A stretch of 64,000 nt of DNA from an uncultured Alphaproteobacteria bacterium (GTDB lineage: Bacteria > Pseudomonadota > Alphaproteobacteria > HIMB59 > GCA-002718135). Numbering within the stretch: the first letter of the stretch is position 1; each line of letters begins with the position of its first letter. Shown piece by piece: positions 6,366 through 47,070 of the stretch. Both the position numbers and the translations under genes were made by a program. The DNA lies in contig CACNNQ010000001.1 of NCBI GenBank assembly GCA_902621855.1, forward strand, positions 62,001 to 126,000, read 5' to 3'. Below the pieces are notes generated by a model, which worked only from the letters and a program-made list of their open reading frames with translations, was not told the origin of the DNA and made no database searches.

Positions 6366-7076
6366 TCAGTTTGCTAATCTAATAAAAATATCACCCATTC
6401 CGGAGTTAAGTTCTCCAAGGGGCGTACTGTTTCTAGCTTCACACATAGGCCCTGTTATTTGATTATTCTGTACATAATCAATATCATACGCATCACATTT
6501 TTGTGCATTGTGAAGTAATCCAATCACAAGTTTATTATCAACCGAGAAAGTATATTCTTTATTTAATTCATTTCCTTTACAAAAATAATCTCGATTAACA
6601 AGTTCGGGAAAATCATTTTTATTACATGGATTGTCAATAACAATTGTATAAATATCTTTTGATTGATCTTTAAAGTCAATTTTTATTTTTTTTGTTTCTG
6701 AATACTTCATCACATCACATAAACAAGGCCAACAACATTTATAGTATTGCCCACAAATCTTTTCATCATTTTCAGAATTAGTAAGAAAAATTTCATCTGG
6801 TTGAACATCAGGTGAAATTAATGAACCAGAAACTGCACAATACAACTTATTAAATTGTAAAAATTCTTCATACTCTAAATCTTGATCTAAAATATATTTA
6901 AAAAACCTAGGCCCTGCTGCATTTCTATTTCCATCTGGAAAAATACTTGGCCAATCTTGCACTAGTTTTGCATACAATTCTTCAGTATTTGCAAAACTAT
7001 TAGAGGTAAAAGAGAAAAATGTGAAAGTTAATATTATTTTAAAAATAAGAATTGCTTCTCTACATATTTTAATCAT
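6366..7076 (-). CDS. Cysteine-rich secreted protein of unknown function
   Basis: 236 residues that I do not recognise with confidence. The N-terminus has a long hydrophobic stretch ending in NSFANTEE, consistent with a Sec signal peptide. The mature protein has about ten cysteines, including a tight cluster CGQYYKCCWPCLCD near residue 110, so disulfides or metal binding in the periplasm are plausible. It is probably the first gene of the minus-strand group that continues into the FG-GAP protein gene 10 nt downstream. No enzyme motif is visible. An orphan exported protein working with the FG-GAP partner is the most that can be said. Confidence 0.65.
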   Translation of the reverse strand: MIKICREAILIFKIILTFTFFSFTSNSFANTEELYAKLVQDWPSIFPDGNRNAAGPRFFKYILDQDLEYEEFLQFNKLYCAVSGSLISPDVQPDEIFLTNSENDEKICGQYYKCCWPCLCDVMKYSETKKIKIDFKDQSKDIYTIVIDNPCNKNDFPELVNRDYFCKGNELNKEYTFSVDNKLVIGLLHNAQKCDAYDIDYVQNNQITGPMCEARNSTPLGELNSGMGDIFIRLAN

Positions 7077-7140: not shown

Positions 7141-7965
7141 TTAAATATAATTTGAATTTCTTAGTTCATTATCCTTAGCTTCACCGGACACTAAGAAAAT
7201 GGGCCTTTCATTAAATTCATATTTAAATCCATTTGCACTTACTCTATCTGGAATCGTTCTATCAAATAAACTTGTTGAAGGCATATATCTGAGCACAATT
7301 GCTTTTCTAGGATTTTCAGAAAAATTGGCATCAGAGCTATGCAATAAATAGGTATCATGAAAAGATACATGGCCACTCTTTATTTCACAATTTACCGCTT
7401 TATTTATATCAAATGATTTTTCATCAATTTTTAGATCTAATGATCCTTTTAACTCTCCCTCTTTTTTTACTGCATCTTCTTGCAAATGAGGAAGCATACC
7501 CTCTTTATGTGACTCAGGAATAAATTGCATACAACCATTATTTTTATCAACATCAGAAATTGCAATCCATGCTGAACATGTAGCTTTTGGATTTATAGGC
7601 CAATAGGTTCCATCTTGATGCCATGGTATTTTTTTTCCTGTTTTAGCTGGTTTGTGCATAACGTGCATTCCCCAAAGAATTACATCAGGTCCTAAAAATT
7701 TTTTTATCTGTTCTACAATTTCACTATCAGTTCCAATATCTAAAAAAGACTTAGATAAATCCTCATTTACTTTATGCTTCTTATTAGTCCCACCAATAAG
7801 ATGAGGTGACGCCATTTCTTCAAGTGTCAAATCTTTATTGGTTGAAATAAATTCATCGTATGATTTACTGATTTTATTAAAAAGATTTTCTGAAAGTTTA
7901 CTTTCGGAAATAACAAAACCGTTTTGTTGGTAGTCTTTAATATTTTTCTCATTAATTTCGAGCAT
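7141..7965 (-). CDS. Phytanoyl-CoA dioxygenase (PhyH) family protein
   Basis: 274 residues of the PhyH Fe(II)/2-oxoglutarate oxygenase family. The iron ligands HxD...H are seen as WHQDGTYWP (about 136-144) and FHDTYLLHSSDANF (about 217-230), and the 2-oxoglutarate-binding arginine is likely in RKAIVLRYMP. Family members hydroxylate small molecules or lipids; the substrate cannot be read from sequence. The gene is transcribed away from the sugar ABC operon, with a shared 165-bp intergenic region holding a GntR-like palindrome, so co-regulation is possible. Confidence 0.82.
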   Translation of the reverse strand: MLEINEKNIKDYQQNGFVISESKLSENLFNKISKSYDEFISTNKDLTLEEMASPHLIGGTNKKHKVNEDLSKSFLDIGTDSEIVEQIKKFLGPDVILWGMHVMHKPAKTGKKIPWHQDGTYWPINPKATCSAWIAISDVDKNNGCMQFIPESHKEGMLPHLQEDAVKKEGELKGSLDLKIDEKSFDINKAVNCEIKSGHVSFHDTYLLHSSDANFSENPRKAIVLRYMPSTSLFDRTIPDRVSANGFKYEFNERPIFLVSGEAKDNELRNSNYI

Positions 7966-8051
7966 TTATTGATCATACTATTATCTAATCAAATTTCAAG
8001 AATCAAAATTTTTAGAGAGAAAATTTTTTCAAGAAATCGCTGAAAACAGCC

Positions 8052-8066
8052 AATTGTCCGACAATT
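8052..8066. promoter_or_regulatory. GntR-type palindromic operator
   Basis: A perfect inverted repeat AATTGTC-c-GACAATT. It fits the general GntR-family half-site pattern (GT...AC), especially FadR/FCD-type sites of the form TTGTCNGACAA. It sits 64 bp before the ATG of the sugar-binding protein gene and 87 bp before the divergent PhyH gene. A weak -35/-10 pair (CCGACA at 8058, TTAAAT or TAAATA near 8079-8086) would overlap it, consistent with repression. No regulator gene is nearby. Confidence 0.6.
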
Positions 8067-8130
8067 AAAAAAAAAACTTTTAAATACCCAAAAAATAGAT
8101 AACTTTAATTCATAATTAATGGGAGGTAAT

Positions 8131-9105
8131 ATGATTAAAAAAATTGGAGTAGTGTTAAGTCTTACTATTTCTTTTATTTTTGTAAATCTATCTGCACATG
8201 CTGAGGAATATGTAATGGTAGGTTTTTATAACGAACACCCAGTCTTCATCCCTGATCATCACTTTTTTCATGAACATGGAAAAAAACTAGGTGTTAAAAC
8301 AAGAGTTGTTGGACCGCCTGATGGCAATGTTCCACAAATGATAACAGCCTTAGAACAAGTAATAGCTTCTAATCCAGCTGGAATAGTTCTTTTGGGAGTT
8401 AATGATTCATTAAATGTTCTTGTTGATGAAGCTATGAATAAAGGTATTCCAGTTGTTACTTGGGACTCTGATATTCCAAGCAGCAGAAGAATCACGCATG
8501 TTGGAACTAACTGGGCACAGCTAGGAGATAAACTAGCTGAGGCTGCTTATGAGTCAACTGGAGGAAAAGGAAAAGCTGCAATGGTTGGCCTTGTAGGTGC
8601 AAGTCATATGGAAGCTGCTTTTGCTAACTTTAAGGCCTGGATAGCTGCAAATGCTCCAGACATGGAAGTACTACCTGTATTTGATGACGAGGCTGTTGTT
8701 GCAAAAGCACACAGTGTTACGGCCGCCCTTATTCAAAAACATCCAGACATTGCTGTAATAGCAGGTTTCAATGGAAGTTCTGGAGGAGGTATTTGTCCTG
8801 CAGTAAGAGAAGCTGGTAGGTCTGGAGATATCAAAGTAGTAATTAACGATATCCTTCCTGCGCACATGGAATGTTTAAAAGAGGGAACAGCTCAGTATAT
8901 TGTTGGACAAAAAAGACATATATTTGGACCAATCGCTCTTCAAACATTATACGACATTAACCATTCTGGAATAAGCTTTACTGATCGTGATAGCGAATTA
9001 GAAATTTTCCCAGCTCCTGACAAAATCGATACTGGATTTTTAGTTGTAACTGAGGATAATTTTTCAGACATGGACCAAATGGTTAAAAATTTAGAAAAAT
9101 TATAA
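8131..9105 (+). CDS. Sugar ABC transporter substrate-binding protein (ribose type)
   Basis: 324 residues. The ATG at 8131 is chosen over an in-frame ATG at 8119 because a strong ribosome binding site, GGGAGGT, lies at 8121-8127. A signal peptide ends near AHA-EE (residue 24). The mature part is a Peripla_BP_4/RbsB-type periplasmic binding protein: VMVGFYNEHPVF, the GIPVVTWDSD hinge-side segment, and a ribose-family GFNGSSGGG region. It captures a sugar in the periplasm and delivers it to the permease. It is the first gene of a five-gene operon and is separated from the ATPase gene by a hairpin, which likely gives it excess expression. The sugar cannot be read from sequence. Confidence 0.9.
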   Translation: MIKKIGVVLSLTISFIFVNLSAHAEEYVMVGFYNEHPVFIPDHHFFHEHGKKLGVKTRVVGPPDGNVPQMITALEQVIASNPAGIVLLGVNDSLNVLVDEAMNKGIPVVTWDSDIPSSRRITHVGTNWAQLGDKLAEAAYESTGGKGKAAMVGLVGASHMEAAFANFKAWIAANAPDMEVLPVFDDEAVVAKAHSVTAALIQKHPDIAVIAGFNGSSGGGICPAVREAGRSGDIKVVINDILPAHMECLKEGTAQYIVGQKRHIFGPIALQTLYDINHSGISFTDRDSELEIFPAPDKIDTGFLVVTEDNFSDMDQMVKNLEKL

Positions 9106-9118
9106 AATAAATATTTTT

Positions 9119-9147
9119 GAGGGTTGCAACGCAACCCTCATTTTTTT
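9119..9147 (+). terminator. Intra-operon hairpin with T tract (attenuator)
   Basis: A 9-bp perfect stem GAGGGTTGC / GCAACCCTC with an AAC loop, followed by A and seven T residues. It has the form of an intrinsic terminator but lies inside the operon, ending 3 nt before the ATPase start codon. Such hairpins behind binding-protein genes typically stabilise the upstream message and reduce transporter gene expression. Confidence 0.8.
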
Positions 9148-9150
9148 AAA

Positions 9151-10635
9151 ATGTTATTAGAAGCAAAAAAAATTAGTAAAAAATTCCCAGGTGTTCAGGC
9201 ATTAAAAGACGTAGACTTTAATTTAAAAGCTGGAGAGGTTCATGCAATTATTGGAGAAAATGGTGCTGGCAAAAGCACATTGATGCACATTTTATCTGGT
9301 ATTTATGAGCACGACAGTGGTGAGTTTTATATAAACAACAAACTTACAAAACTTAACTCATTTCAAAAAGCTAAAAAAAATGGTATTTCAATCGTATTCC
9401 AAGAAAGAAGTTTATTTCCTAACTTATCAATTGAAGAGAATATTTTTGGTGCATCGCCACCTAAAAATAAAAATATATTTTTCCAAATTGATTGGACTAA
9501 TCTTTCTAAAAAAGCGCAAGAATATTTAGATCAACTCAATATGACAATTAACAAAAAGGTTTTAGTAGGAGAACTTTCTGTTGCAAGACAGCAAATGATT
9601 GAAATAGCTAAAGCTATATCTAATGATTTTAAAATATTAATTTTAGACGAGCCGACAGCTTCAATTACTTTACAGGAAACTGAAGTTTTATTTGAATTAA
9701 TAAATGAGTTTAAAAAAGAAGGTAGAAGCATAATTTATATATCACACAGACTGAAAGAAATAAAAAAAATTGCTGATAGAGTTTCAGTTCTGAAAGATGG
9801 AGAATATGTCGGAACTTTTAACTCCCCTGATGTAGATATAGATTTTCTAGTAAATAAAATGCTCGGCAGAAGTTTAGAAAATAAAAAATTCAATGATATA
9901 AGTTCATCTGAAGATGAAATAGTCCTAAGTTTAAGAAATTTTAATGGTCATGGATTTAAAGATATAAATTTAGATTTATTTAAAGGTGAAATTCTAACTC
10001 TGACTGGCTTAAGTGGCGCAGGTAGAACAGAGCTAGCATATGCAATATTTGGATATGTTCCTGCCTTAAATGGACAAATAAAAATTTACAACAAAGACTC
10101 CAAAATCAATCATCCAAAAGATGCTATTGCAAATGGCATTGGTTATCTTTCTGAAAATAGAAAAGAGCTAGGTCTATTCATTGGAATGGAATATAGAGAA
10201 AATATTGAATCAAACAACCTTGATAAATTTACCAAAAATTATATCATTAATTGGGGTAAGAGAGATAAAGTTTCAAATGAGTTGAAAGATAAATTTGATA
10301 TTAAAATACCACATATCCAACAGTTAGTTTTAAATTTAAGCGGAGGCAATCAGCAAAAAGTAAGTATTTCAAAATGGATATATGCAAATTTAAATATTTT
10401 AATTGTTGATGAACCAACAATAGGTGTTGATGTAGGTGCAAAATTTGCAATATATAAAATTTTAAAAGAAATAACTAATAATGGGGTTAGTGTTTTAATG
10501 ATAAGCTCAGATATAAATGAAACACTTAATATAAGTGATAGAATTTTAGTGATGTTTGATGGTAAAATTAACGGAGAATTAAAATCAGATGAAGCAAATG
10601 AAGAAAAAATTCTCAAAATGGCATCAGGATTATAA
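9151..10635 (+). CDS. Sugar ABC transporter ATP-binding protein (RbsA/MglA type, two ABC domains)
   Basis: 494 residues with two ATPase domains. The first has Walker A GENGAGKST (35-43), LSVARQQMIEIAKA as signature and LILDEPTAS as Walker B. The second has a degenerate P-loop (GLSGAGRTE) but a good LSGGNQQKVSISKW signature and LIVDEPTIGVDVGA, the usual arrangement in RbsA/XylG/MglA. I start at ATG 9151; an upstream TTG in frame lies inside the terminator-like hairpin. No Shine-Dalgarno sequence is apparent, so translation may be weak. The stop overlaps the permease start (TAATG). It powers import of the sugar bound by the upstream binding protein. Confidence 0.92.
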   Translation: MLLEAKKISKKFPGVQALKDVDFNLKAGEVHAIIGENGAGKSTLMHILSGIYEHDSGEFYINNKLTKLNSFQKAKKNGISIVFQERSLFPNLSIEENIFGASPPKNKNIFFQIDWTNLSKKAQEYLDQLNMTINKKVLVGELSVARQQMIEIAKAISNDFKILILDEPTASITLQETEVLFELINEFKKEGRSIIYISHRLKEIKKIADRVSVLKDGEYVGTFNSPDVDIDFLVNKMLGRSLENKKFNDISSSEDEIVLSLRNFNGHGFKDINLDLFKGEILTLTGLSGAGRTELAYAIFGYVPALNGQIKIYNKDSKINHPKDAIANGIGYLSENRKELGLFIGMEYRENIESNNLDKFTKNYIINWGKRDKVSNELKDKFDIKIPHIQQLVLNLSGGNQQKVSISKWIYANLNILIVDEPTIGVDVGAKFAIYKILKEITNNGVSVLMISSDINETLNISDRILVMFDGKINGELKSDEANEEKILKMASGL

Positions 10636-11579
10636 TGAATAATATTTTAAAAATTATTATCTCAAATAGAACAATTTTTCTTCTTGTTCTCATGTTTGTT
10701 TTTTCAATTATAGCGACAATATTTTTAGGTTCAAAATTTGCAAGTTTAGCTAATTTAAAAGCTGTGATACTTGGGCAAACATCCATAGCAATAATGACTA
10801 TAGGTATGATGGCATTATTAATAAGTGGTGTGTTCGACTTGTCGGTAGGATCAATATTTGCTTTAGGATCAGTTTTTTGTGGCTATTTAATTAAAAGTGT
10901 TGGATTGCCCTATCCAATTGCTATGATTTTAGCATTATGTGGCTGCGGTCTTCTAGGAGCAGTCAATGCATTTATTATTACAAAAATGCATGTAAATGCG
11001 TTGATAACAACCTTAGCGACAATGGGTATTTTTAAAGGGTTAGCGATCATCATAGGTGGAGCAGGTATTATGGGCCTTCCAAAAGAATTTATATATTTTG
11101 GAAGAACTGATTTTTTAGGAGTCCCATCTCCAATTTGGTACTTCTTAATTATACTTGTTGTCTTTTCATATCTTTTTAGCAATGTTGCATATTTTAGAAA
11201 ATATTATTTTGTTGGTGGAAATGAAAAAGCTGCCACACTTTCTGGGATTAGTGTAAATCACATTCGTTTTACAGGATATATTTTGTCTGGATTACTAGCA
11301 GGTTTTGGAGGAGTTTTACATGCATCAAGACTTGGAGCTTCTATACCCTTAGCAGGTAGTGGTTTAGAACTTCAAGTCATTGCTGCCGCAGTTGTTGGAG
11401 GAGCAAGTTTAGTGGGTGGCAAAGGTACTATTTTTGGCGGCGTCTTAGGAGCAATGTTTTTGGCATTGGTATTTAACGTTTTTGTAATTACTGGTGTATC
11501 AGCATATTGGATACCAGTAGTAAATGGTGCCATTCTTATATTAGCAGTTTATTTTCATGTTGTATTTAAAAAGGAATAA
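10635..11579 (+). CDS. Sugar ABC transporter permease (RbsC type)
   Basis: 314 residues, largely hydrophobic, with about eight to ten membrane helices. The family motif region AAAVVGGASLVGGKGTIFGGVLGA near residues 250-275 (quoted in part: GGASLVGGKGTIFGG) and ISGVFDLSVGSIFALG near 60-75 are typical of BPD_transp_2 RbsC/XylH permeases. Only one permease gene is present, so the channel is probably a homodimer, as in ribose and xylose transporters. It starts on the stop codon of the ATPase gene and ends directly against the dehydrogenase gene, indicating tight co-translation. Confidence 0.92.
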   Translation: MNNILKIIISNRTIFLLVLMFVFSIIATIFLGSKFASLANLKAVILGQTSIAIMTIGMMALLISGVFDLSVGSIFALGSVFCGYLIKSVGLPYPIAMILALCGCGLLGAVNAFIITKMHVNALITTLATMGIFKGLAIIIGGAGIMGLPKEFIYFGRTDFLGVPSPIWYFLIILVVFSYLFSNVAYFRKYYFVGGNEKAATLSGISVNHIRFTGYILSGLLAGFGGVLHASRLGASIPLAGSGLELQVIAAAVVGGASLVGGKGTIFGGVLGAMFLALVFNVFVITGVSAYWIPVVNGAILILAVYFHVVFKKE

Positions 11580-12344
11580 ATGACATCGATTTACAAAAGT
11601 CTTGAAAATAAAATCGTTATCATAACTGGCGGTTCCCAAGGTATAGGAAAATCAATGGTATCTGAATTTGTTAAGCAAAAAAGTAAAGTATATTTTCTTG
11701 ATATTGATAAAGAAGGAGCATTGAAACTAATAGATGAATTAGAAAAACAAAATTTGAAAAAACCATTTTTTTATGAATGTAATATTACGAATTTTAAGGA
11801 GTTAACCTCAGTTATTGAAAAAATTGGGGAAGAGAATGGTGTAATTGATGTACTTATTAATAATGCTGCAAATGATCAAAGACATAAAATTCAAGATGTT
11901 GATGAAAAATTATGGAAAGATAGAATAGATATAAATTTATCTCATTCATTTTTTGCAATTAAATCCTCCATTCCTTACTTAAAAAAATCAAAATCAGCCT
12001 CTGTCATAAATTTTAGTTCTATTAATTGGGTTATTGGATCAAAAGATACGATTGTTTATCAAGCAGCAAAATCAGCAGTATTTGGATTAACGAAAGGTTT
12101 TGCAAGAGAACTTGGCGAATATCGTATTAGAGTTAACGCCATAGTGCCGGGATGGATAATAACTGAACGTCAATTAGAACTTTGGCTCACACCAGAGTTA
12201 GATAAATGGCGATCTGAACAACAATCTTTACCAGATAAAGTATATCCAGATGATGTAGCAAAATTAGCTCTTTTTTTGGGATCTAATGATAGTAAAATGA
12301 TTACTGCTCAATTTCACAAAATTGATGGTGGGTGGATGAATTAA
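11580..12344 (+). CDS. Short-chain dehydrogenase, D-xylose/aldose 1-dehydrogenase-like
   Basis: 254 residues of the classical SDR family. The cofactor motif TGGSQGIG is at 16-23, NNAA at 94-97, and the Ser-Tyr-Lys triad at about Ser147, Tyr160 and Lys164 (YQAAK). From memory, its pattern (NDxRHK near 98-103, the RQ...W.TPE segment, and the IDGGW end) resembles Caulobacter D-xylose 1-dehydrogenase of the Weimberg pathway and related aldose dehydrogenases. It probably oxidises an imported sugar at C1 to a lactone using NAD(P). It directly follows the permease gene and overlaps the next start by 1 nt. No lactonase or sugar-acid dehydratase is in the window, so the pathway is incomplete here. Confidence 0.82.
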   Translation: MTSIYKSLENKIVIITGGSQGIGKSMVSEFVKQKSKVYFLDIDKEGALKLIDELEKQNLKKPFFYECNITNFKELTSVIEKIGEENGVIDVLINNAANDQRHKIQDVDEKLWKDRIDINLSHSFFAIKSSIPYLKKSKSASVINFSSINWVIGSKDTIVYQAAKSAVFGLTKGFARELGEYRIRVNAIVPGWIITERQLELWLTPELDKWRSEQQSLPDKVYPDDVAKLALFLGSNDSKMITAQFHKIDGGWMN

Positions 12345-13189
12345 TGAAAAAAAAATACAAACGAGTTTATTCAATTAGTTTAGAGCCTGGGTATAGAAAC
12401 TATACTGTAAGGGATTTAATTGAAAATAAAGGTAAGAAACAACTAACGCAAATTCATGTTGCAACTCCAGAAGAAGCAAAAGCTGCGGAAGAAGCTGGTA
12501 TTGATTTACTTTTAGTAAGAGTGTGTCCAGAATTACATGAGATTAGAAAAGCAGCCCCAAAAACTTTTATTACTGTTTCGGTACCTTTTATTAAATACTC
12601 ATCAAAGGAAGAAATTGTTAAAGACTCTCTTGAAATTATTGATATGGGATTTGATTCAATAACTTGTGGTTCATGGAATTTAGATTTTATGAAATATTTG
12701 AATGGTTTTAAAATTCCTTTTCAAGGTCACGCAGGACTTGTGCCAAGACGATCTACTTGGATTGGAGGTATGAAAGCTTATGCAAAAAATGCAGAAGAAG
12801 CTATTCAACTATTTAAAGATATTAAAGATATTGAAGATACAGGTGCTTGGGGAGTTGAGGTAGAATGTGTGCCTGAAGAAGTTCTTGGCGAAATTTCCAA
12901 AAATACTTCACTCGTAACTATATCAATTGGTTCTGGTAAAAAATCAGATGTACAATTTTTATTCTCTGAAGATATTCTAGGAAGCAGTAGTATTCCTCTA
13001 CCTAGACATGCAAAGCAATATAGAAATTTCAAAAAATATTATGACAAAATGCAAAAAGAACGAATAGAAGCCTTTAAAGAATTTAAAAATGATGTTTCAA
13101 AAAAATCATTTCCATCTAAAAAACATGTTATTGGTATTGATGCTAAAGAACTATCTAATTTGAAAAAATATCTAAAAGATTATGATTGA
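12344..13189 (+). CDS. PanB-fold (ketopantoate hydroxymethyltransferase-like) protein lacking the metal ligands
   Basis: 281 residues, starting at ATG 12344 on the dehydrogenase stop (TAATG). The barrel aligns with PanB: VPFIKY (80-85), GHAGLVP (128-134), GGMKAY (141-146), VECVPEE (172-178) and ISIGSG (193-198). Against E. coli PanB recalled from memory, GDS reads RVC, so Asp45 becomes Val60 and Ser46 Cys61. Asp84 aligns with Ser79, Lys112 with Ser105 and Glu114 with Thr107, while His136 (His129) and Glu181 (Glu174) remain. About 20 residues after the GDS loop are deleted. It is therefore unlikely to make ketopantoate. Its place behind a sugar dehydrogenase suggests a sugar-acid role, perhaps an aldolase-like step; that is inference. 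Confidence 0.72.
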   Translation: MKKKYKRVYSISLEPGYRNYTVRDLIENKGKKQLTQIHVATPEEAKAAEEAGIDLLLVRVCPELHEIRKAAPKTFITVSVPFIKYSSKEEIVKDSLEIIDMGFDSITCGSWNLDFMKYLNGFKIPFQGHAGLVPRRSTWIGGMKAYAKNAEEAIQLFKDIKDIEDTGAWGVEVECVPEEVLGEISKNTSLVTISIGSGKKSDVQFLFSEDILGSSSIPLPRHAKQYRNFKKYYDKMQKERIEAFKEFKNDVSKKSFPSKKHVIGIDAKELSNLKKYLKDYD

Positions 13190-14205: not shown

Positions 14206-14209
14206 TTAA
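14171..14209 (+). pseudogene. Possible integrase start remnant (12 codons)
   Basis: ATG at 14171 opens MKLTNKIVEQHI and then stops. An MKLT(D/N)-type beginning directly inside an attachment site is reminiscent of tyrosine integrase genes, but twelve codons are too few to be sure. It overlaps the end of the convergent 593-codon gene by 4 nt. It may simply be chance. Confidence 0.25.
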
Positions 14210-15987
14210 AAGCTACATATCTCTTTTTTAACAATCTTCCATTGACCATCTAACTTGCCAGTTTTTTTATTACACCAATTATTTTTAAAAGGAAAAACTA
14301 AGAAAAGATAATCTTTATTATTTTGATTTATTTTACCAAAATATAAATTTTTGTCTAAATTAGAAGGTAATTTATCCTTTGATTTTACTTTTTCTCCACT
14401 TAATCTTAGAATATGGGTAAGTAGTTTATAATCATCTTCATTATAATTCTCAAATTCTTGTAATTGCCAGGTGAATTTCTTTAGATCAATTATTTTATTA
14501 AAATTGGTTATTCTACTTAAAGAACTCTCTGAGCTTTCTAATAGTAAATTTGCATAAATATAAAATTTATTTTTACCCAAAGCGATGAAAGATGGATTAT
14601 TTGTATTATCCCATTGTCTATTAGTTGTTTTTTTATTTCCTCCACCAACTATTTTAAAAACATTATTAGTTTTTTGAATAATATAGAGTCCACGTGGGTA
14701 TGCCTTTTCATCATCTTTAACAATAATAGAAAGGATATATTTATTATTTTCTATATCATTAATTTTTATAGCAGGATTTTTATTAAATATGTCAATTTGA
14801 GAATTTATTATTCCTTTTTTAGATAAAAAACATTGAGTATTTAATCCCATATGCTGACTATTTGCTTCTTCTAGAAAAGACAAAGGAAAATATTTTGATA
14901 GTTTTGTTACATTTTCATGATTTGGAAAACGTGAAGCATAAGCATAAAACCAAAGCATACGGCTACCATATCCATTTATTACTTGATTATAATAAGTTAA
15001 ATCTTTCCAATTTTGAGTGCGACCCTCTTGTCCAATTAATTCTTTAGCATAGTTGAACATTAAATTTTTATCTGACAATGCATCAGCAAAGAATTTTACG
15101 GCATCATGAATATTTTTATTATTTTTTTTTGATTTATAGGAATAAAGATCATAACCTTGAATATAATACGCTTCAGCTATTCCAATTATATCATTTAAAT
15201 TATGAGCATAATACTTCCAAGAATGTGACCCTCGCACCGCTTCTTTCCATAATGCTCCATCTTTTTTTAAATCATCAATTATAAATTTATAATATTTAGA
15301 ACCATCAATAAAATCGTTATTATTGTTTTTTAATATTGAATAAAGAGTTTTTACTTGAATACCTGAAGAAGTATGATTTTGACATCCACCGTGCTCTTTT
15401 TTTTCTATGAATTTATCATTATGTATACATTGTTTAGTATTCATAGTTTTATGAGATCTATAGGGCTTATATACTTTATCTATCCATTTTAATATTTTAT
15501 CAAAATCACTACTATTAATTTGATTATTAATTTTTAAAACAGACAAAGAATATAAAATAATATCTAAATTATCTTTTGTATTCAAAAGCGTGTTCATAAA
15601 GTAAACATCATTTTTATTCTTAGTTTTTGTCATATAATTATTTTTTGCTAAATGCAAAATTGCTTCTTTAATATTTTTTGCATCTAAATCACTTTGAGTT
15701 TGATAATATTTTGACATGTATGAAAAAAGACTGAATGGAATAAAATTCCATTCTTTTATATTTTCATCATCTGTGTTTTTTGGAATCTTCTTATTTAAAA
15801 ATTGATTAATAGAAATTGTATTTTTGTTTCTAGATACACAAAGGCTTTTAATTATTTCTTTATTATTTATTTCACTAAACCTTTCATCAATTGATGGAAC
15901 TAATTTATATGGTTTATTAATTATATAATCATCAGCATATAATTTTAGTGAAAAAAAAATAATTAATAAATAAAAGATATTTTTCAT
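14206..15987 (-). CDS. Exported protein, possible alginate-lyase-like (alpha/alpha toroid) enzyme
   Basis: 593 residues and the only large gene of the insertion. The N-terminus (MKNIFYLLIIFFSLKLYA) is a signal peptide. Residues about 95-390 are helical, with segments recalling alginate-lyase domains (PF05426-like): NHTSSGIQVKTLYSIL, the RGSHSWKYYAHNLNDIIG region, AYYIQGYDLYSYKS, DAVKFFADAL and RMLWFYAYASRFP. This would make it a periplasmic or secreted polysaccharide lyase. The C-terminal 200 residues look beta-rich and match nothing I recognise. The fold assignment rests on weak pattern resemblance; it could be another toroid-fold protein. AT-rich composition is like its neighbours. Confidence 0.45.
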   Translation of the reverse strand: MKNIFYLLIIFFSLKLYADDYIINKPYKLVPSIDERFSEINNKEIIKSLCVSRNKNTISINQFLNKKIPKNTDDENIKEWNFIPFSLFSYMSKYYQTQSDLDAKNIKEAILHLAKNNYMTKTKNKNDVYFMNTLLNTKDNLDIILYSLSVLKINNQINSSDFDKILKWIDKVYKPYRSHKTMNTKQCIHNDKFIEKKEHGGCQNHTSSGIQVKTLYSILKNNNNDFIDGSKYYKFIIDDLKKDGALWKEAVRGSHSWKYYAHNLNDIIGIAEAYYIQGYDLYSYKSKKNNKNIHDAVKFFADALSDKNLMFNYAKELIGQEGRTQNWKDLTYYNQVINGYGSRMLWFYAYASRFPNHENVTKLSKYFPLSFLEEANSQHMGLNTQCFLSKKGIINSQIDIFNKNPAIKINDIENNKYILSIIVKDDEKAYPRGLYIIQKTNNVFKIVGGGNKKTTNRQWDNTNNPSFIALGKNKFYIYANLLLESSESSLSRITNFNKIIDLKKFTWQLQEFENYNEDDYKLLTHILRLSGEKVKSKDKLPSNLDKNLYFGKINQNNKDYLFLVFPFKNNWCNKKTGKLDGQWKIVKKEICSF

Positions 15988-30307: not shown

Positions 30308-31639
30308 ATGATTAAACATTCTACGTCGGTGGATCAATCAGATAGAAAGGTTCCCTACAATTTAAGACAGAGTGGTCCTACACCAGTCCAAATGCTTATT
30401 TCAACCAGAGTGAGAAAATCACCTTATTGGCATTTGTCAATGGAGGCGGGATGTTGGAGAGCAACAGTTTATAATAGAATTTATCATCCAAGAGGTTACG
30501 TAAAGCCTGAAGATGGTGGAGCAATGGTTGAGTATGAGGCAATTAAAAACCATGTTACTATGTGGAATGTTGCTGTCGAAAGACAAATTCAGGTTAAAGG
30601 TCCTGATGCTGAGGCATTTGTTGATTATGTCATAACTAGAGATGCTACTAAAATATCTCCAATGAGAGGAAGATATGTTATTCTTTGTAATCAATATGGC
30701 GGTGTTTTAAATGACCCTATTCTTCTAAGAATTTCAAAGGACGAGTTTTGGTTTTCATTATCTGACTCAGATATTGGTCTTTATTTACAGGGTGTAAATC
30801 ATGATAATAGGTTTAATGTTCATATTGATGAAATTGATGTAAGCCCAGTTCAAATTCAAGGACCTAAAGCGCATGCTTTGATGAATGATTTAATAGGTGA
30901 TCAAGTTAAAGTTGATGAAATGCCATTCTATGGACTTGCTGCTGCTAAAGTAGGTGGAAGAGATTGTATAATTTCTCAAACAGGTTTCTCTGGAGAGGCT
31001 GGATTTGAAATTTATTTATATGAGTCTACTAAGTATGCTGATGATATGTGGAATGCTGTTTTAGAAGCAGGAAAAAAACACAATCTTATGGTTATAGCTC
31101 CGGCTCATCATCGAAGAATCCAAGCAGGAATTCTATCTTGGGGTCAAGACATGGATAATCAGCATAATCCTTTTCAATGTAATTTAGGCTATCAAGTATC
31201 TCTATCTGGTAAAGGTGAGTGGAATAAAACTTCTGATTATGTTGGTAAGACTGTTCTTGAAAAGATGAAGGCAGATTTAAAAGATGGAAAAAAACCATAC
31301 AAGCTTCAGTTAGTTGGATTAAGCTTAGGTGGAAAACCTATCGAAGAATATGCTCCTGATTTTTGGCTTGTTTCAGAAGATGGCAATGAGCCTTGTGGGT
31401 TCATAACATCTCCTTGGTATCATCCTGAGCAAGGAAGAAACATTGCTATGGGCTATGTACCATTTGATGGAACTCTAAATAAAAATGGTTTTCCTATTGG
31501 AAATTTTGGTCGTAAATTCAAGGTTCATCTACCTAATCAATATGCAGATACACCTGGTGTGCCAGTGGATGCAGAAGTTGTGCCAATCCCTTTTACTGAA
31601 TCACACAACGCAAATACTAGAGAAGTAGTAGATAAATAA
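30308..31639 (+). CDS. GcvT/DmdA-like tetrahydrofolate-dependent methyltransferase
   Basis: 443 residues, longer than true DmdA (about 370). Motifs include HVTMWNVAVERQIQVKGPDAEAFVDYVITRD (75-105, quoted by its ends HVTMWNVAVERQIQ and VDYVITRD), the DPILLRISKDEFWFSLSDSD region, QIQGPKA, SQTGFSGEAGFEIYL and APAHHRRIQAGILSWGQDMD. The family transfers a methyl or methylene group to THF, as in the GcvT and DMSP-demethylase families. The sequence lacks specific markers I can tie to DMSP, so the donor is open. A good AAGGAG ribosome binding site precedes the ATG. It ends in a strong terminator and lies 0.7 kb before the dimethylglycine dehydrogenase-like gene, so the two probably share a physiology. 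Confidence 0.85.
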   Translation: MIKHSTSVDQSDRKVPYNLRQSGPTPVQMLISTRVRKSPYWHLSMEAGCWRATVYNRIYHPRGYVKPEDGGAMVEYEAIKNHVTMWNVAVERQIQVKGPDAEAFVDYVITRDATKISPMRGRYVILCNQYGGVLNDPILLRISKDEFWFSLSDSDIGLYLQGVNHDNRFNVHIDEIDVSPVQIQGPKAHALMNDLIGDQVKVDEMPFYGLAAAKVGGRDCIISQTGFSGEAGFEIYLYESTKYADDMWNAVLEAGKKHNLMVIAPAHHRRIQAGILSWGQDMDNQHNPFQCNLGYQVSLSGKGEWNKTSDYVGKTVLEKMKADLKDGKKPYKLQLVGLSLGGKPIEEYAPDFWLVSEDGNEPCGFITSPWYHPEQGRNIAMGYVPFDGTLNKNGFPIGNFGRKFKVHLPNQYADTPGVPVDAEVVPIPFTESHNANTREVVDK

Positions 31640-32352: not shown

Positions 32353-34788
32353 ATGAAATCAAAGTCAAAAGTAGTTGTAATAGGTGGAGGTGCTGTAGGA
32401 GTTAGTACACTTTATCATTTAGCCAAAAAAGGTTGGTCAGATGTAGTTTTGGTGGAAAGAAAGGAATTAACTTCTGGATCTACATGGCACGCTGCTGGGT
32501 TACTTCCATTATTCAATATGAGTTATTCAGTAGGTCAATTGCACAAATACGCCGTCAAACTTTACAAAACTCTTGAAGAAGAAACGGGACAAAAAGTTGG
32601 GTTTAGTGTTGTTTCTAATATTCGTCTAGCAACTACTCAAGATAGAATGGATGAGTATTATCAATATTCAGGAGTTGCAAAAACGATAGGTGTAGATGTT
32701 AAATTTTTAACTCCTGAACAAGTAAAAGAAATTTGGCCACTTTGTAATACAGATGGATTAATAGGTGCAATTCAGCATCCTGAAGATGGATACATTCAAC
32801 CAGCTGATCTAACTCAAGCTTTAGCAAAAGGAGCTAGAGACAAAGGTGCAGAAATTTATAGAAATACTTCTGTAACTGGTATTAAAAAAAATAAAGATGA
32901 TTTATGGATTGTAGAAACAGATAAAGGATCTATTGAATGTGAGCATGTAGTATCTTGTAGTGGTAATTTTGCGAGACAGACAGGAAAGATGGTAGGACTT
33001 GATATTCCAGTAATACCTGTTGAACATCAATACATAGTGACTGATGATCATCCTGAAATATTAAAAAGAAAAGAACAAGGACTTCCCGAAATGGGAGTTT
33101 TAAGAGATTCTGATAGTTCTTGGTACATGCGAGAAGAAAGAGGAGGATTGATTTTAGGTCCCTATGAAAAAGGAGCTCCCGTTTGCTATGTTGATGGACC
33201 TGATAAAGAATCTGAATTCGAATTATTTCAAGAAGATCTAGAGCGTTTAGAACCTCACATTGAATCAGCAATGCACCGAGTTCCTATTTTTGGAGAAGTT
33301 GGAGTTAAGAAAGTCTATAATGGTGCTATTTGTTATACACCAGATGGAAGTCCAATTGTTGGACCGGCATGGGGACTAAAAAATTTCTGGTTAAATGAAG
33401 GTCATAGTTTTGGAATTACTGCAGCTGGTGGAGCTGGATGGCAAATTGCTGAGTGGATAGTAGACGGTGAACCTACAATTGATATGTTAGGAGTAGATCC
33501 CAGAAGATTTGGTGATTATGCAACTGAAGCATATTTAATTAAAAAGAATGAAGAAGCTTACGCGAACGTCTTTACAGTACACTATCCTGACGAGGAAAGG
33601 GAAGAGGGACGTCCATTAAGACAAGCTCCTTGTTATGATAGATTAAATAATCTTGGTGCAGTTTTTGGTCAAAAGTTTGGTTGGGAGCGCGCTAACTGGT
33701 TTGCACCCTCAAAAGAATTGCAAAAAGATGATTGGTCATTTAGAAGATCAAAATGGTTTGAGCATGTTGGCAACGAATGCTTAAATGTTCAAGATAATGC
33801 TGGTCTTCTAGATATGACTGCCTTTGCTAAATGTCGGATTTCAGGACCTTGTGCAGAAGAATTTCTAGACTACTTAGTTGCAAACAAAATACCTAAAAAA
33901 ATTGGAAGAGTTAATCTTTGTCATGCATTAAATACTGCTGGAGGAGTTCACTCAGAATTCACAATTGCGAAAGAAAAAGAAAATTCGTTTTATTTAGTTT
34001 CAGCAGGAGCATTTCAACGATTAGATCATGATTGGATTCATAAATGGATGCCCAAAGATGGGACAGTAACTTATGAAAATCTAACTAATAGTATGGGTGT
34101 TCTTGTTTTAGCAGGACCTAAATCAAGAGATATTCTTTCCAAAATTACTAAGACTGATTTATCTAATGAAAATTTCCCATGGTTATCATCAAAAAAAATC
34201 AATGTTGGTTTAGCCCCTAGTATTGCTATGCGAATGAATTTTGTTGGAGAACTAGGGTGGGAATTACATCATCCAATTGAATATCAAAACCACATTTTTG
34301 ATAAATTGATGGAAGCAGGAAAAGATCATGGACTTAAACCATTTGGTATTAGAGCAATGGAAAGCTTACGTGTTGAAAAAACCTATAAATTGGTTGGAAC
34401 CGAAATGTCTATAGAATATGCAGCTTTTGAGTCCGGATTAGATAGATTTGTACATTTAAACAAAGGGAATTTTATTGGAAGAGATTCTCTTGTTAAATGG
34501 CAGCAAAATGGTTTTAAAAACAAAATGGTAACTTTAGAAGTTCATGATGTTGAAGATGCAGATGCTTTGGGTAATAATCCTATTTATAATAATGGAAAAG
34601 TTATAGGTCGTGCGACAGGAGGTAACTATGGTTTTAGAGTGAAAAAATCATTAGCTATTGGTATGGTGGAACCTCAATTTTCAGACGTCGGTCAAAAATT
34701 AGAAATGGATATATTAGATAAAAAATACAATGTAACTGTTATAGAAGATAGTCCTTATGATCCTAAAAATGAAAAACTAAAAAAATAA
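32353..34788 (+). CDS. Dimethylglycine/sarcosine dehydrogenase-type FAD-GcvT fusion enzyme
   Basis: 811 residues in two parts. The N-terminal DAO-type FAD domain has [10 protein letters not shown] (7-16) and [11 protein letters not shown] (42-52), where His46 is the expected covalent FAD site. The C-terminal GcvT-like THF domain starts near 400 and shows [18 protein letters not shown] and [12 protein letters not shown]. This layout is that of dimethylglycine dehydrogenase and sarcosine dehydrogenase: oxidise an N-methyl group, hand the C1 unit to THF and the electrons to ETF. etfB, etfA and ETF-QO follow, matching that electron route. Which methylamine is oxidised (dimethylglycine or a relative) cannot be fixed by eye. 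Confidence 0.88.
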
Positions 34789-40214: not shown

Positions 40215-40761
40215 CTAATAAATCATAAACATATTTTGCATGCGATCTGTTTAAATGTAAATCTAGTGAAGTCTCTCCTTTATCAGTATTATTTCTGATA
40301 AAAAGTACTGGAATTTTTATAAATATAGTTTGAGCTACAGAAAAATTAGTTTCCAAAATTTTTTCTAAGTTGGCTACAAGAAATTTAGAAAGTAAAATAA
40401 ATACCTTTTCACCTTCAAGTCGTAAAACAGTTTTATTAAATGAAACATCAGTTATTGCTGTTTTTTCTGGATTAAGTTTAGATTCTAATAGAGAAATAAT
40501 TTCATCTTTCTCATTTTCTGGTGTTTCGACTAACCATTCATTAGGACCAAGCCAAAAAATACTAATATTATTATTAAAAATTCTTACATTTGGCTCAATT
40601 GGTAAAACCAGGTTTAATACTGAGCCTATATTTTTCATAAATTCTTTATCTGAACTTTTACCTCGTATATTTATTTTACCTGATAGAGCTTTTTCTTCTA
40701 TTGTTACTCCATTGTAATTTTTTTTATTTATATTCAAAACATTACTGTAAGTTAAACTCAT
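40186..40761 (-). CDS. soxG: Sarcosine oxidase gamma subunit
   Basis: 191 residues matching the small SoxG subunit of heterotetrameric sarcosine oxidase. It has the GcvT-related N-terminal pattern: NVRIFNNNISIFWLGPNEWLVETP (about 62-85, quoted by its ends VRIFNN and GPNEWLVETP), TDVSFNKTVLRLEG and the DLHLNRSHAKYVYDLLVDG end. It overlaps soxA by four bases (ATGA) and the nuclease gene by 29 nt. It completes the set needed for an active SoxBDAG enzyme. The similarity is moderate, but the position is diagnostic. Confidence 0.88.
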   Translation of the reverse strand: MSLTYSNVLNINKKNYNGVTIEEKALSGKINIRGKSSDKEFMKNIGSVLNLVLPIEPNVRIFNNNISIFWLGPNEWLVETPENEKDEIISLLESKLNPEKTAITDVSFNKTVLRLEGEKVFILLSKFLVANLEKILETNFSVAQTIFIKIPVLFIRNNTDKGETSLDLHLNRSHAKYVYDLLVDGSKNLNI

Positions 40762-45396: not shown

Positions 45397-47070
45397 TTAA
45401 AAAAGACCTTCAATTTCTCCATGGTCATTTAGCTTTATCGAATTTGCCGCAGGAACACTTGGTAGACCCGGCATGGTCATAATATCACCGCAAACAACTA
45501 CTATAAATTCCGCTCCTGATGATAATCTTACCTCTCTAATAGGTAAAACGTGGCCAGTGGGGGCACCTTTTAAATTAGGGTCAGTTGAAAAACTATATTG
45601 AGTCTTTGCAATGCAAACAGGTAATTTGCCAAATCCTTTAGTTTCAAAATCTTTCAATTGTTGACGTACTTTCGTGTCTGCCACAACTTCACTTGCGTGA
45701 TAAATCTCTTGTGCAATTTTTTCTATTTTTTTGAATAGAGTTAAATCATCTTCATATAAAAATTTAAATGTATTTTTGTTTTCTTCACAAATATCTATTA
45801 CATTTTGAGCTAATTCAGTTGCACCATCACCACCATCGGACCAGTGAGTACACATAGAAGCCTTGACTCCTTGAGTTGAACAAAAACTTAGAACTGCATC
45901 TACTTCATCTTTTGAATCTGTAATAAAATGATTAATAGCAACAGTTACTGGTAATCCAAATTTTCTAACATTATTAATATGTCTTTCTAAATTTACTAAA
46001 CCTTTTTTAAGAGCATTTACATTTTCATTTTTTAAATTTTCTTTTGAAACATTGCCATGCATTTTTAGTGCTCTAATTGTAGCTACCAAAACTACACAAT
46101 CAGGTTTTAAATTTGATTTTCTACATTTTATATCAAGGAATTTTTCTGCTCCTAGATCAGCTCCAAAGCCTGCTTCAGTTACAACGTAATCACTTAATTT
46201 TAAACTAGCTTTAGTTGCAATTACAGAATTGCAACCATGAGCAATATTTGCAAATGGCCCACCATGAATTATAGCAGGGTTATTTTCTAACGTTTGTGTT
46301 ATGTTGGGTCTAATGGCATCTTTTAATAATACTGTCATTGGACCTTGTGCCCTTAAATCTTTTGCATAAATAGCTTTTTTGTCTCGTGTATAAGCGATAG
46401 TTATATTTCCAATTCTCTGTTCAAGATCTTTTAAATCTTTTGCTAAGCAGAAAATTGCCATTATCTCCGATGCAACAGTAATATCAAAACCATCTTGTCT
46501 AGGATAACCATTTGCAACTCCTCCTAAATCAACAACTATAGATCTAAGCGATCTATCATTCATATCCATTACTCTCTTCCAAACAACCCTTCTAACATCA
46601 ATATTTAATTTATTTCCCCAGTAGATATGATTATCAATTAATGCAGAAAGTAAATTATGAGCAGATGTAATTGCATGAAAGTCTCCAGTAAAATGTAAAT
46701 TAATTTGCTCCATTGGAACTACTTGAGCATAGCCTCCACCAGCTGCACCACCTTTCATACCGAATGATGGTCCAAGACTTGGCTCTCTTAAACAAACTAT
46801 TGATTTCTTTCCTAGTTTATTAAGACCATCGCTTAATCCAACAGAAGTTGTTGTTTTACCTTCTCCTGCTGGTGTTGGAGTTATTGCTGAGACTAGAACA
46901 AGTTTACCATCTTTATTTTTATTAAGTGACTCTATGTACTCCAAGTTTATTTTTGCTATGTGGCGACCCATAGGACTGAAGGCTTCAGGTGTGTCTGGTA
47001 CATCAAGCCCTTTTAGAATTTCACTAATAGGTTTCATTTTAGCTTTTCTTGCTATTTCAATATCTGACAT
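45397..47070 (-). CDS. fhs: Formate-tetrahydrofolate ligase
   Basis: 557 residues, the standard size. The P-loop TPAGEGKTT is at 66-74, and a second hallmark is [14 protein letters not shown] (about 270-283). [12 protein letters not shown] and [17 protein letters not shown] near the C-terminus are conserved. Fhs interconverts formate and formyl-THF with ATP. In a methylamine-degrading operon it can run toward ATP formation. No folD or purU lies in the window, so the links between methylene-THF and formyl-THF must be elsewhere. It is upstream of soxB by 20 nt and downstream of metF by 93 nt. Confidence 0.95.

Follow-up and report, generated by a model that had tools for sequence, protein, structure and literature searches.

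A PanB-fold protein family lacking the metal and keto-acid site of PanB, often encoded beside oxygenases: a tentative candidate for one-carbon capture

The protein considered here is encoded in a plus-strand operon within the window, the term used for the whole 64,000-nt stretch of DNA that was analysed. It is referred to as PANL, a name given here to the low-scoring kind of PF02548 protein. The features relevant to its context are as follows.

7141..7965, minus strand: PhyH-family Fe(II)/2-oxoglutarate dioxygenase, divergent from the PANL operon; candidate oxygenase partner, its membership of the system being presumptive
7966..8118, no strand: divergent intergenic region of 153 bases between PhyH and the operon; presumably a control region common to both
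8119..9105, plus strand: periplasmic sugar-binding protein (Peripla_BP_4)
9124..10635, plus strand: sugar-type ABC ATPase with two ABC domains, RbsA-like
10635..11579, plus strand: sugar-type ABC permease (BPD_transp_2)
11580..12344, plus strand: SDR dehydrogenase, nearest to D-xylose 1-dehydrogenase (score below the cut-off of that family)
12344..13189, plus strand: PANL, PanB-fold protein without the metal and keto-acid site of PanB
45397..47070, minus strand: formate-tetrahydrofolate ligase (FTHFS), a folate one-carbon (C1) sink outside the operon

The stop of the SDR gene and the start of the PANL gene overlap by one base, and PhyH lies 4.4 kb from PANL. Just downstream of the operon, on the opposite strand, an Alginate_lyase-family protein (67.3 bits) is encoded at 14206–15987. 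A 236-aa protein without a Pfam match at 1e-5 is encoded at 6366–7076, between PhyH and an FG-GAP/UnbV protein.

PF02548 is the only Pfam family matched by the window PANL (search at E 0.001); both its score, judged by the Pfam gathering score, and its fold place it in that family. No match to the KDPG, DHDPS or HpcH aldolase families was found at the same threshold. On TIGR00222, the model of PanB (KPHMT, EC 2.1.2.11, PDB 1m3u), the window PANL scores 99.8 bits, under the equivalog cut-off of 207.55 bits, and the PANL of R. johnstonii is likewise under it at 105.2 bits. A search of about 5.8 billion proteins returned 1343 relatives at E 1e-3 or better, 120 of them among the matches listed. 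Identity to the PEP mutase/isocitrate lyase superfamily (methylisocitrate lyase, PEP mutase) is at most 15 % among the matches listed, and PANL further differs from that superfamily in having no counterparts of the PanB metal ligands. Across this genome and 60 relatives, PF02548 scores form two populations, one of at least 248.9 bits and one of at most 150.5 bits, with a clean gap between them; this genome contributes one true PanB, at 266.1 bits, to the first and two PANL to the second. In a tree of 53 proteins, the 40 PANL and the 13 PanB separate with a support of 100/100, and the window PANL is placed outside PanB.

Residues were compared in 141 PANL and 42 PanB sequences, with two high-scoring deviants from genomes G068 and G064 counted among the latter. 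Asp84, Lys112 and Glu114 of PanB are absent from all 141 PANL, whereas PanB keeps Asp84 and Glu114 in 40 of 42 sequences each and Lys112 in all 42. Asp45 is absent from 140 of the 141 PANL, its column containing Asp in one sequence and Glu in three. In the window PANL, Ser79 and Thr107 occupy the positions of Asp84 and Glu114, and the Asp45 loop, which follows strand 2, is deleted. The lost residues are those that hold Mg2+ and the keto acid in PanB. The PanB catalytic residues Glu181 and His136 are retained as Glu174 and His129 in the window protein and throughout PANL. Six polar residues are invariant in the family (His129, Glu172, Glu174, Asp202, Asp210 and His222; 141/141), and Lys29 and Glu44 are each present in 139 of 141. 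Two of these, Glu172 and His222, are novelties relative to PanB, which has Leu or Val at the former position in 40 of 42 sequences and Phe at the latter in all 42. The window PANL fits the resulting definition of the clade: Glu172-x-Glu174, His222 after Pro-Arg, no Asp84 and no Glu114.

An acidic residue lies within six residues of the loop after strand 2, in the old Asp45 area, in 124 of the 141 PANL; the other 17, including several rhizobial moc-operon proteins, have none. This acid is not a universal ligand because it is missing from those 17, and a shifted alignment restoring Asp45 was rejected on the same count. The metal site may have been relocated within PANL. Separately, a third kind of PF02548 protein is possible. 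Proteins encoded around 5983 of L219 (G068) and around 6001 of L220 (G064), the two deviants, score 298.9 and 295.5 bits on PF02548; they carry Ser/Ala, Gln and Glu at the positions of Asp84, Glu114 and Glu172, and keep Phe at 222 as well as Lys112.

The family is recorded publicly as the vitamin B5 enzyme PanB but appears to do another job. Besides its true PanB, the window genome has PanC. Nine of the 21 genomes behind the fetched loci contain PANL without a high-scoring PF02548 gene; PanC is below cut-off or absent in six of these (G061, G062, G066, G069, G073 and G074) and present in three (G067, G070 and G077), while ten of the remaining 12 have PanC and two (G079 and G080) lack it, all of these PanB and PanC absences being soft because several of the genomes are MAGs or single-cell assemblies. 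That PANL is a divergent PanB making ketopantoate would agree with the automatic annotation and with the three PANL-only genomes that have PanC. It is nevertheless extremely improbable in view of the genome's own PanB and PanC, the lack of PanC in six of the nine PANL-only genomes, the missing PanB signature residues and the separate clade, and pantothenate synthesis was rejected as the role of PANL. The evidence points to a widespread family for which the PanB annotation is mistaken. Where PANL is counted as PanB, metabolic models and predictions of pantothenate synthesis for rhizobia and marine bacteria would be in error.

A sequence-only reading of the window gene had described a PanB scaffold without metal ligands, an observation confirmed across the family by the residue comparison. 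It had also proposed that the protein does not serve pantothenate synthesis and probably catalyses a new reaction, which the separate true PanB, the clade and the PanC distribution support. It had allowed that a true alignment might restore the ligands or that the protein might make ketopantoate as the only PanB of the genome; Asp84 and Glu114 are absent from every PANL examined, the acid of the Asp45 area is not general, and the genome has a true PanB apart from PANL.

The neighbourhood of PANL was surveyed beyond this genome. In a scan of reference genomes 95 relatives were confirmed, and 80 loci were retained, with Alpha-, Beta- and Gammaproteobacteria in most records. Dereplication at 80 % identity left 47 PANL genes, which have 162 proteins encoded within 2 kb; 150 of these were scanned, and 12 short or doubtful ORFs were excluded. 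PhyH was the most frequent Pfam family (15), ahead of FA_desaturase (9), which includes the MocD type, and FA_hydroxylase (7), all three being oxygen-activating iron enzymes; Reductase_C, the C-terminal domain of ferredoxin reductases, occurred four times. Among 142 proteins located more than 6 kb away at the same loci, all four families fall outside the top 25. The last entries of that top 25 have two members, so each of the four occurs at most twice at this distance. Over 100 loci, copies were also counted in bins of 0–2, 2–4, 4–6 and 6–9 kb: 13, 0, 0 and 0 for the main FA_hydroxylase profile; 3, 4, 2 and 0 for a second, more distant FA_hydroxylase profile; 17, 8, 0 and 1 for FA_desaturase; and 27, 7, 8 and 3 for PhyH. 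Genes of the MR family (7, 7, 2 and 2) and luciferase-like monooxygenases (10, 4, 3 and 2) likewise become fewer with distance. SDR genes do not thin out, and ABC ATPase genes are sparser close to PANL.

For the final counts, the same profiles were run on all six-frame stretches within 4 kb. PhyH, FA_desaturase or FA_hydroxylase is found at 72 of 129 PANL loci compared with 3 of 41 true-PanB loci (Fisher p 1.5e-8, relatedness of loci ignored), a comparison that uses profiles derived from PANL neighbourhoods and phylogenetically non-independent loci; without two repeated loci the count is 71 of 127. Broken down by set, such an oxygenase accompanies PANL at 29 of 82 reference-genome and own loci, 17 of 18 loci of relatives, 17 of 20 phylum-survey loci and 9 of 9 fetched plasmid loci. 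The phylum survey covered 398 genomes of the same phylum, 18 of which, this genome included, have PANL at E 1e-40. Outside a broad clade of Alpha-, Beta- and Gammaproteobacteria (loci L015–L083) the association holds at 52 of 60 loci, compared with 20 of 69 inside it. Of the 57 PANL loci without an oxygenase within 4 kb, 49 belong to the broad clade, and 19 of those 49 have less than 4 kb of sequence on one side. The misses outside the clade are L006, L013, L014, L158, L181, L183, L184 and the window, the PhyH of which is just beyond the limit.

Other families were also counted within 4 kb. A small Rieske ferredoxin is present at 31 of 129 PANL loci and none of 41 PanB loci, a MR-family gene at 16 and 1, and a luciferase-like monooxygenase at 13 and 0, respectively. 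As MR-family and luciferase-like genes are enriched too, the partners of PANL are not solely demethylase candidates. SDR genes (24/129 PANL and 8/41 PanB loci) and ABC ATPase genes (22/129 and 5/41) are no denser near PANL than at 6–9 kb, and sugar-transporter linkage was for this reason rejected as the main, defining context.

Annotated rhizobial operons place PANL within a specific gene order. On plasmid pA of Rhizobium etli CIAT 652, mocD, mocEa and mocFa are followed by PANL, annotated as 'probable ketopantoate hydroxymethyltransferase'. On pRL11 of R. johnstonii 3841 (RL_RS32895 to RL_RS32880) the order is fatty acid desaturase, MocE ferredoxin, FAD oxidoreductase and PANL, and desaturase, ferredoxin, oxidoreductase and PANL also follow one another in S. 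meliloti ml59 pSymB, Sinorhizobium sp. B11 and R. indicum; in these four strains a divergent LacI regulator precedes the operon. The survey genomes repeatedly show the order FA_desaturase, small Rieske ferredoxin, (ferredoxin reductase) and PANL. In Mesorhizobium amorphae and on two Bradyrhizobium plasmids, PANL is followed by a sterol desaturase, a small 2Fe-2S/Rieske protein and a FAD oxidoreductase, with a TIM-barrel gene inserted before the oxidoreductase in the Bradyrhizobium plasmids. Two of these sterol desaturases were tested, and both proved to be FA_hydroxylase proteins. The only such gene after PANL in Alisedimentitalea is a sterol desaturase.

The second PANL of this genome (8064–8894 of L084, minus strand; L084 1–17001 is C5:82000–99000 of the genome) lies in a moc-like island with a Rieske ferredoxin, a ferredoxin reductase, a desaturase-like protein, FA_hydroxylase, a sugar ABC transporter and two PhyH genes; the ferredoxin scores 134.8 bits on the MocE model, for which the cut-off is 136.15. 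By eye, Gfo/Idh-like oxidoreductases are also present in the island. Compared with the mocDEF rhizopine operon, in which PANL comes next after mocFa (R. etli) or after the counterparts of the moc genes (R. johnstonii, S. meliloti), the second PANL thus has a similar gene set around it, whereas PhyH takes the place of MocD, MocE and MocF in the window operon. MocDEF takes off the O-methyl group of its substrate. The title of Bahar et al. 1998 names a ferredoxin oxygenase complex. According to PMC10107442 and PMC3538637 (section 9), moc genes including mocDEF are needed for the catabolism of rhizopine, an O-methyl inosamine. A search of open papers found no role for the fourth gene after mocDEF and no function for PANL proteins. 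Frequent oxygenase neighbours, the mocDEF set included, suggest that PANL acts in a step of oxidative catabolism that has gone unrecognised, possibly a demethylation.

PanB transfers a hydroxymethyl group to and from tetrahydrofolate, and oxidative demethylation yields formaldehyde. PANL is predicted, tentatively and at somewhat less than an even chance, to take a hydroxymethyl or formaldehyde unit made by an oxygenase that demethylates or hydroxylates an imported sugar, probably onto tetrahydrofolate. This prediction builds on the fold, the residue losses and gains, the clade and the genomic partnership with oxygenase families. On this view, the half of PanB responsible for binding and enolising ketoisovalerate with Mg2+ would be gone from PANL, and residues that could serve the C1 and proton-transfer half, the equivalents of His136 and Glu181, would remain. 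In the window, the ABC transporter may import a methylated or otherwise substituted sugar and the PhyH dioxygenase may hydroxylate its methyl group; PANL would then transfer the hydroxymethyl group or formaldehyde onto tetrahydrofolate to form methylene-tetrahydrofolate, the C1 unit of which would presumably be burned by the folate pathway of the genome. Oxidation of what is left of the sugar would fall to the SDR. A bolder version of this reading is somewhat doubtful: that PANL is the long-missing enzyme loading formaldehyde onto tetrahydrofolate, a PanB barrel without the metal and keto-acid site that keeps the hydroxymethyl-transfer half and acts as fourth component of oxygenase-based demethylation systems, whether of mocDEF, FA_hydroxylase or PhyH type. 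Its hosts would span Alpha-, Beta- and Gammaproteobacteria and include both rhizobia and marine bacteria with small genomes.

Published work bears on this chemistry. According to PMC7610986, E. coli PanB also acts as a tetrahydrofolate-free metal aldolase with formaldehyde. PMC7073904 describes the spontaneous reaction of formaldehyde with tetrahydrofolate as too slow for an effective assimilation route and considers PanB as one of two E. coli enzymes that might catalyse it promiscuously; E. coli PanB is an unlikely catalyst in that test because the strain built for it had the same growth phenotype. PANL would be a concrete candidate catalyst for this step. In PMC4433239, a region of Filomicrobium sp. 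Y with a methanesulfonate monooxygenase, which makes formaldehyde, is given GcvT and a 909-nt 'PanB' as C1 genes. A length of 909 nt is shared by the PANL gene of another Filomicrobium record (L055), the match to the published gene being by length alone. Among the 129 PANL loci a GcvT homologue lies within 4 kb at two, both in one genome; GcvT was rejected as a regular neighbour, and the Filomicrobium arrangement is thus not general. Ten GCV_T genes of this genome exceed the cut-off, including three that lie in the window. The encoded window proteins (30308–31639, 32353–34788 and 40758–43748) form, with FTHFS at 45397–47070, a folate-linked C1 region. The formaldehyde-activating enzyme Fae (PF08714) was found in none of the nine genomes searched, this one included, and the window PANL does not match PF08714. 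The job predicted for PANL, an enzyme-catalysed attachment of formaldehyde to a pterin carrier, would be analogous to that of Fae, to which the family is unrelated.

Other activities have to be weighed against C1 capture, above all an aldolase function in pathways of sugar oxidation, in which 2-keto-3-deoxy sugar acids or a similar retro-aldol substrate would be cleaved. Aldol chemistry is within the capability of the PanB fold, and E. coli PanB accepts C4 and C5 aldoses with 2-oxo acids (PMC7610986). Dehydratase-family genes are found near PANL (IlvD/EDD in L004 and L012, MR family in L005), and L005 combines an ABC transporter, an alcohol dehydrogenase, a SMP-30 lactonase and a MR protein with no other aldolase seen by eye in 12 kb. 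MR-family genes are often sugar-acid dehydratases, and their enrichment near PANL, where they are denser within 4 kb than beyond, keeps this activity under consideration. Glu181, presumably the base that enolises ketoisovalerate in PanB, is retained, which suits an aldolase equally. Against it stand the universal or near-universal loss of the metal and keto-acid residues, and the presence of other cleavage enzymes in some of the sugar clusters themselves: L004 encodes a DHDPS-family protein, L011 a PfkB kinase and a KDPG aldolase, and L007 a FAA hydrolase with an amidohydrolase and a FMN dehydrogenase. Moreover, no dehydratase or sugar-acid step adjoins PANL in the annotated rhizobial moc operons, and SDR and ABC ATPase genes are not concentrated around it. 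A predicted sugar-acid aldolase activity is thus unlikely, outweighed by the oxygenase linkage. The sequence-only reading had raised such an aldol step as a possibility from the transporter and dehydrogenase beside the window gene and had suggested a profile search for a clade always adjoining sugar transporters; a separate clade with the same losses emerged and a new reaction is supported, but sugar transporters are not its defining neighbours and the aldol step is not the best reading.

Two further alternatives keep PANL within an oxygenase system. PANL may be an enzyme with a relocated putative metal site (Glu172, Glu174 and His129, perhaps with His222 and Glu44) that performs a lyase, hydrolase or isomerase step, not C1 transfer, on the hydroxylated product of the oxygenase. 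The universal presence of Glu172 and His222 in PANL and their rarity or absence in PanB agree with this, as does the position of two Glu two residues apart on one strand, which could both face the barrel interior, and the diversity of the oxygenases suits a shared follow-up step. The known PanB-fold relatives act on 2-oxo acids, however, and no 2-oxo acid substrate is common to the PANL neighbourhoods; this alternative is doubtful. Alternatively, PANL may have a non-catalytic or accessory role in the oxygenase system, acting in assembly, product binding or regulation. This would fit a gene encoded directly with those for ferredoxin and reductase and an active site that is partly dismantled compared with PanB, but the invariance of six polar residues and near-invariance of Lys29 and Glu44 are enzyme-like, and such a role is improbable.

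Several individual loci show further arrangements. Upstream of 8950 in L063 a gene resembles, by eye, a BoxB-type epoxidase, with PANL directly downstream, and at about 9870–10940 in L080 a gene that by eye looks like one for a cobalamin-independent methionine synthase-like protein adjoins PANL. L019 is a MAG contig, for which the record name Bordetella parapertussis is doubtful. In L147, L149, L151 and L152, PANL occurs as a tandem pair with PhyH on both flanks and a BNR-repeat protein; a transporter and a DHDPS-like gene were also seen nearby by eye.
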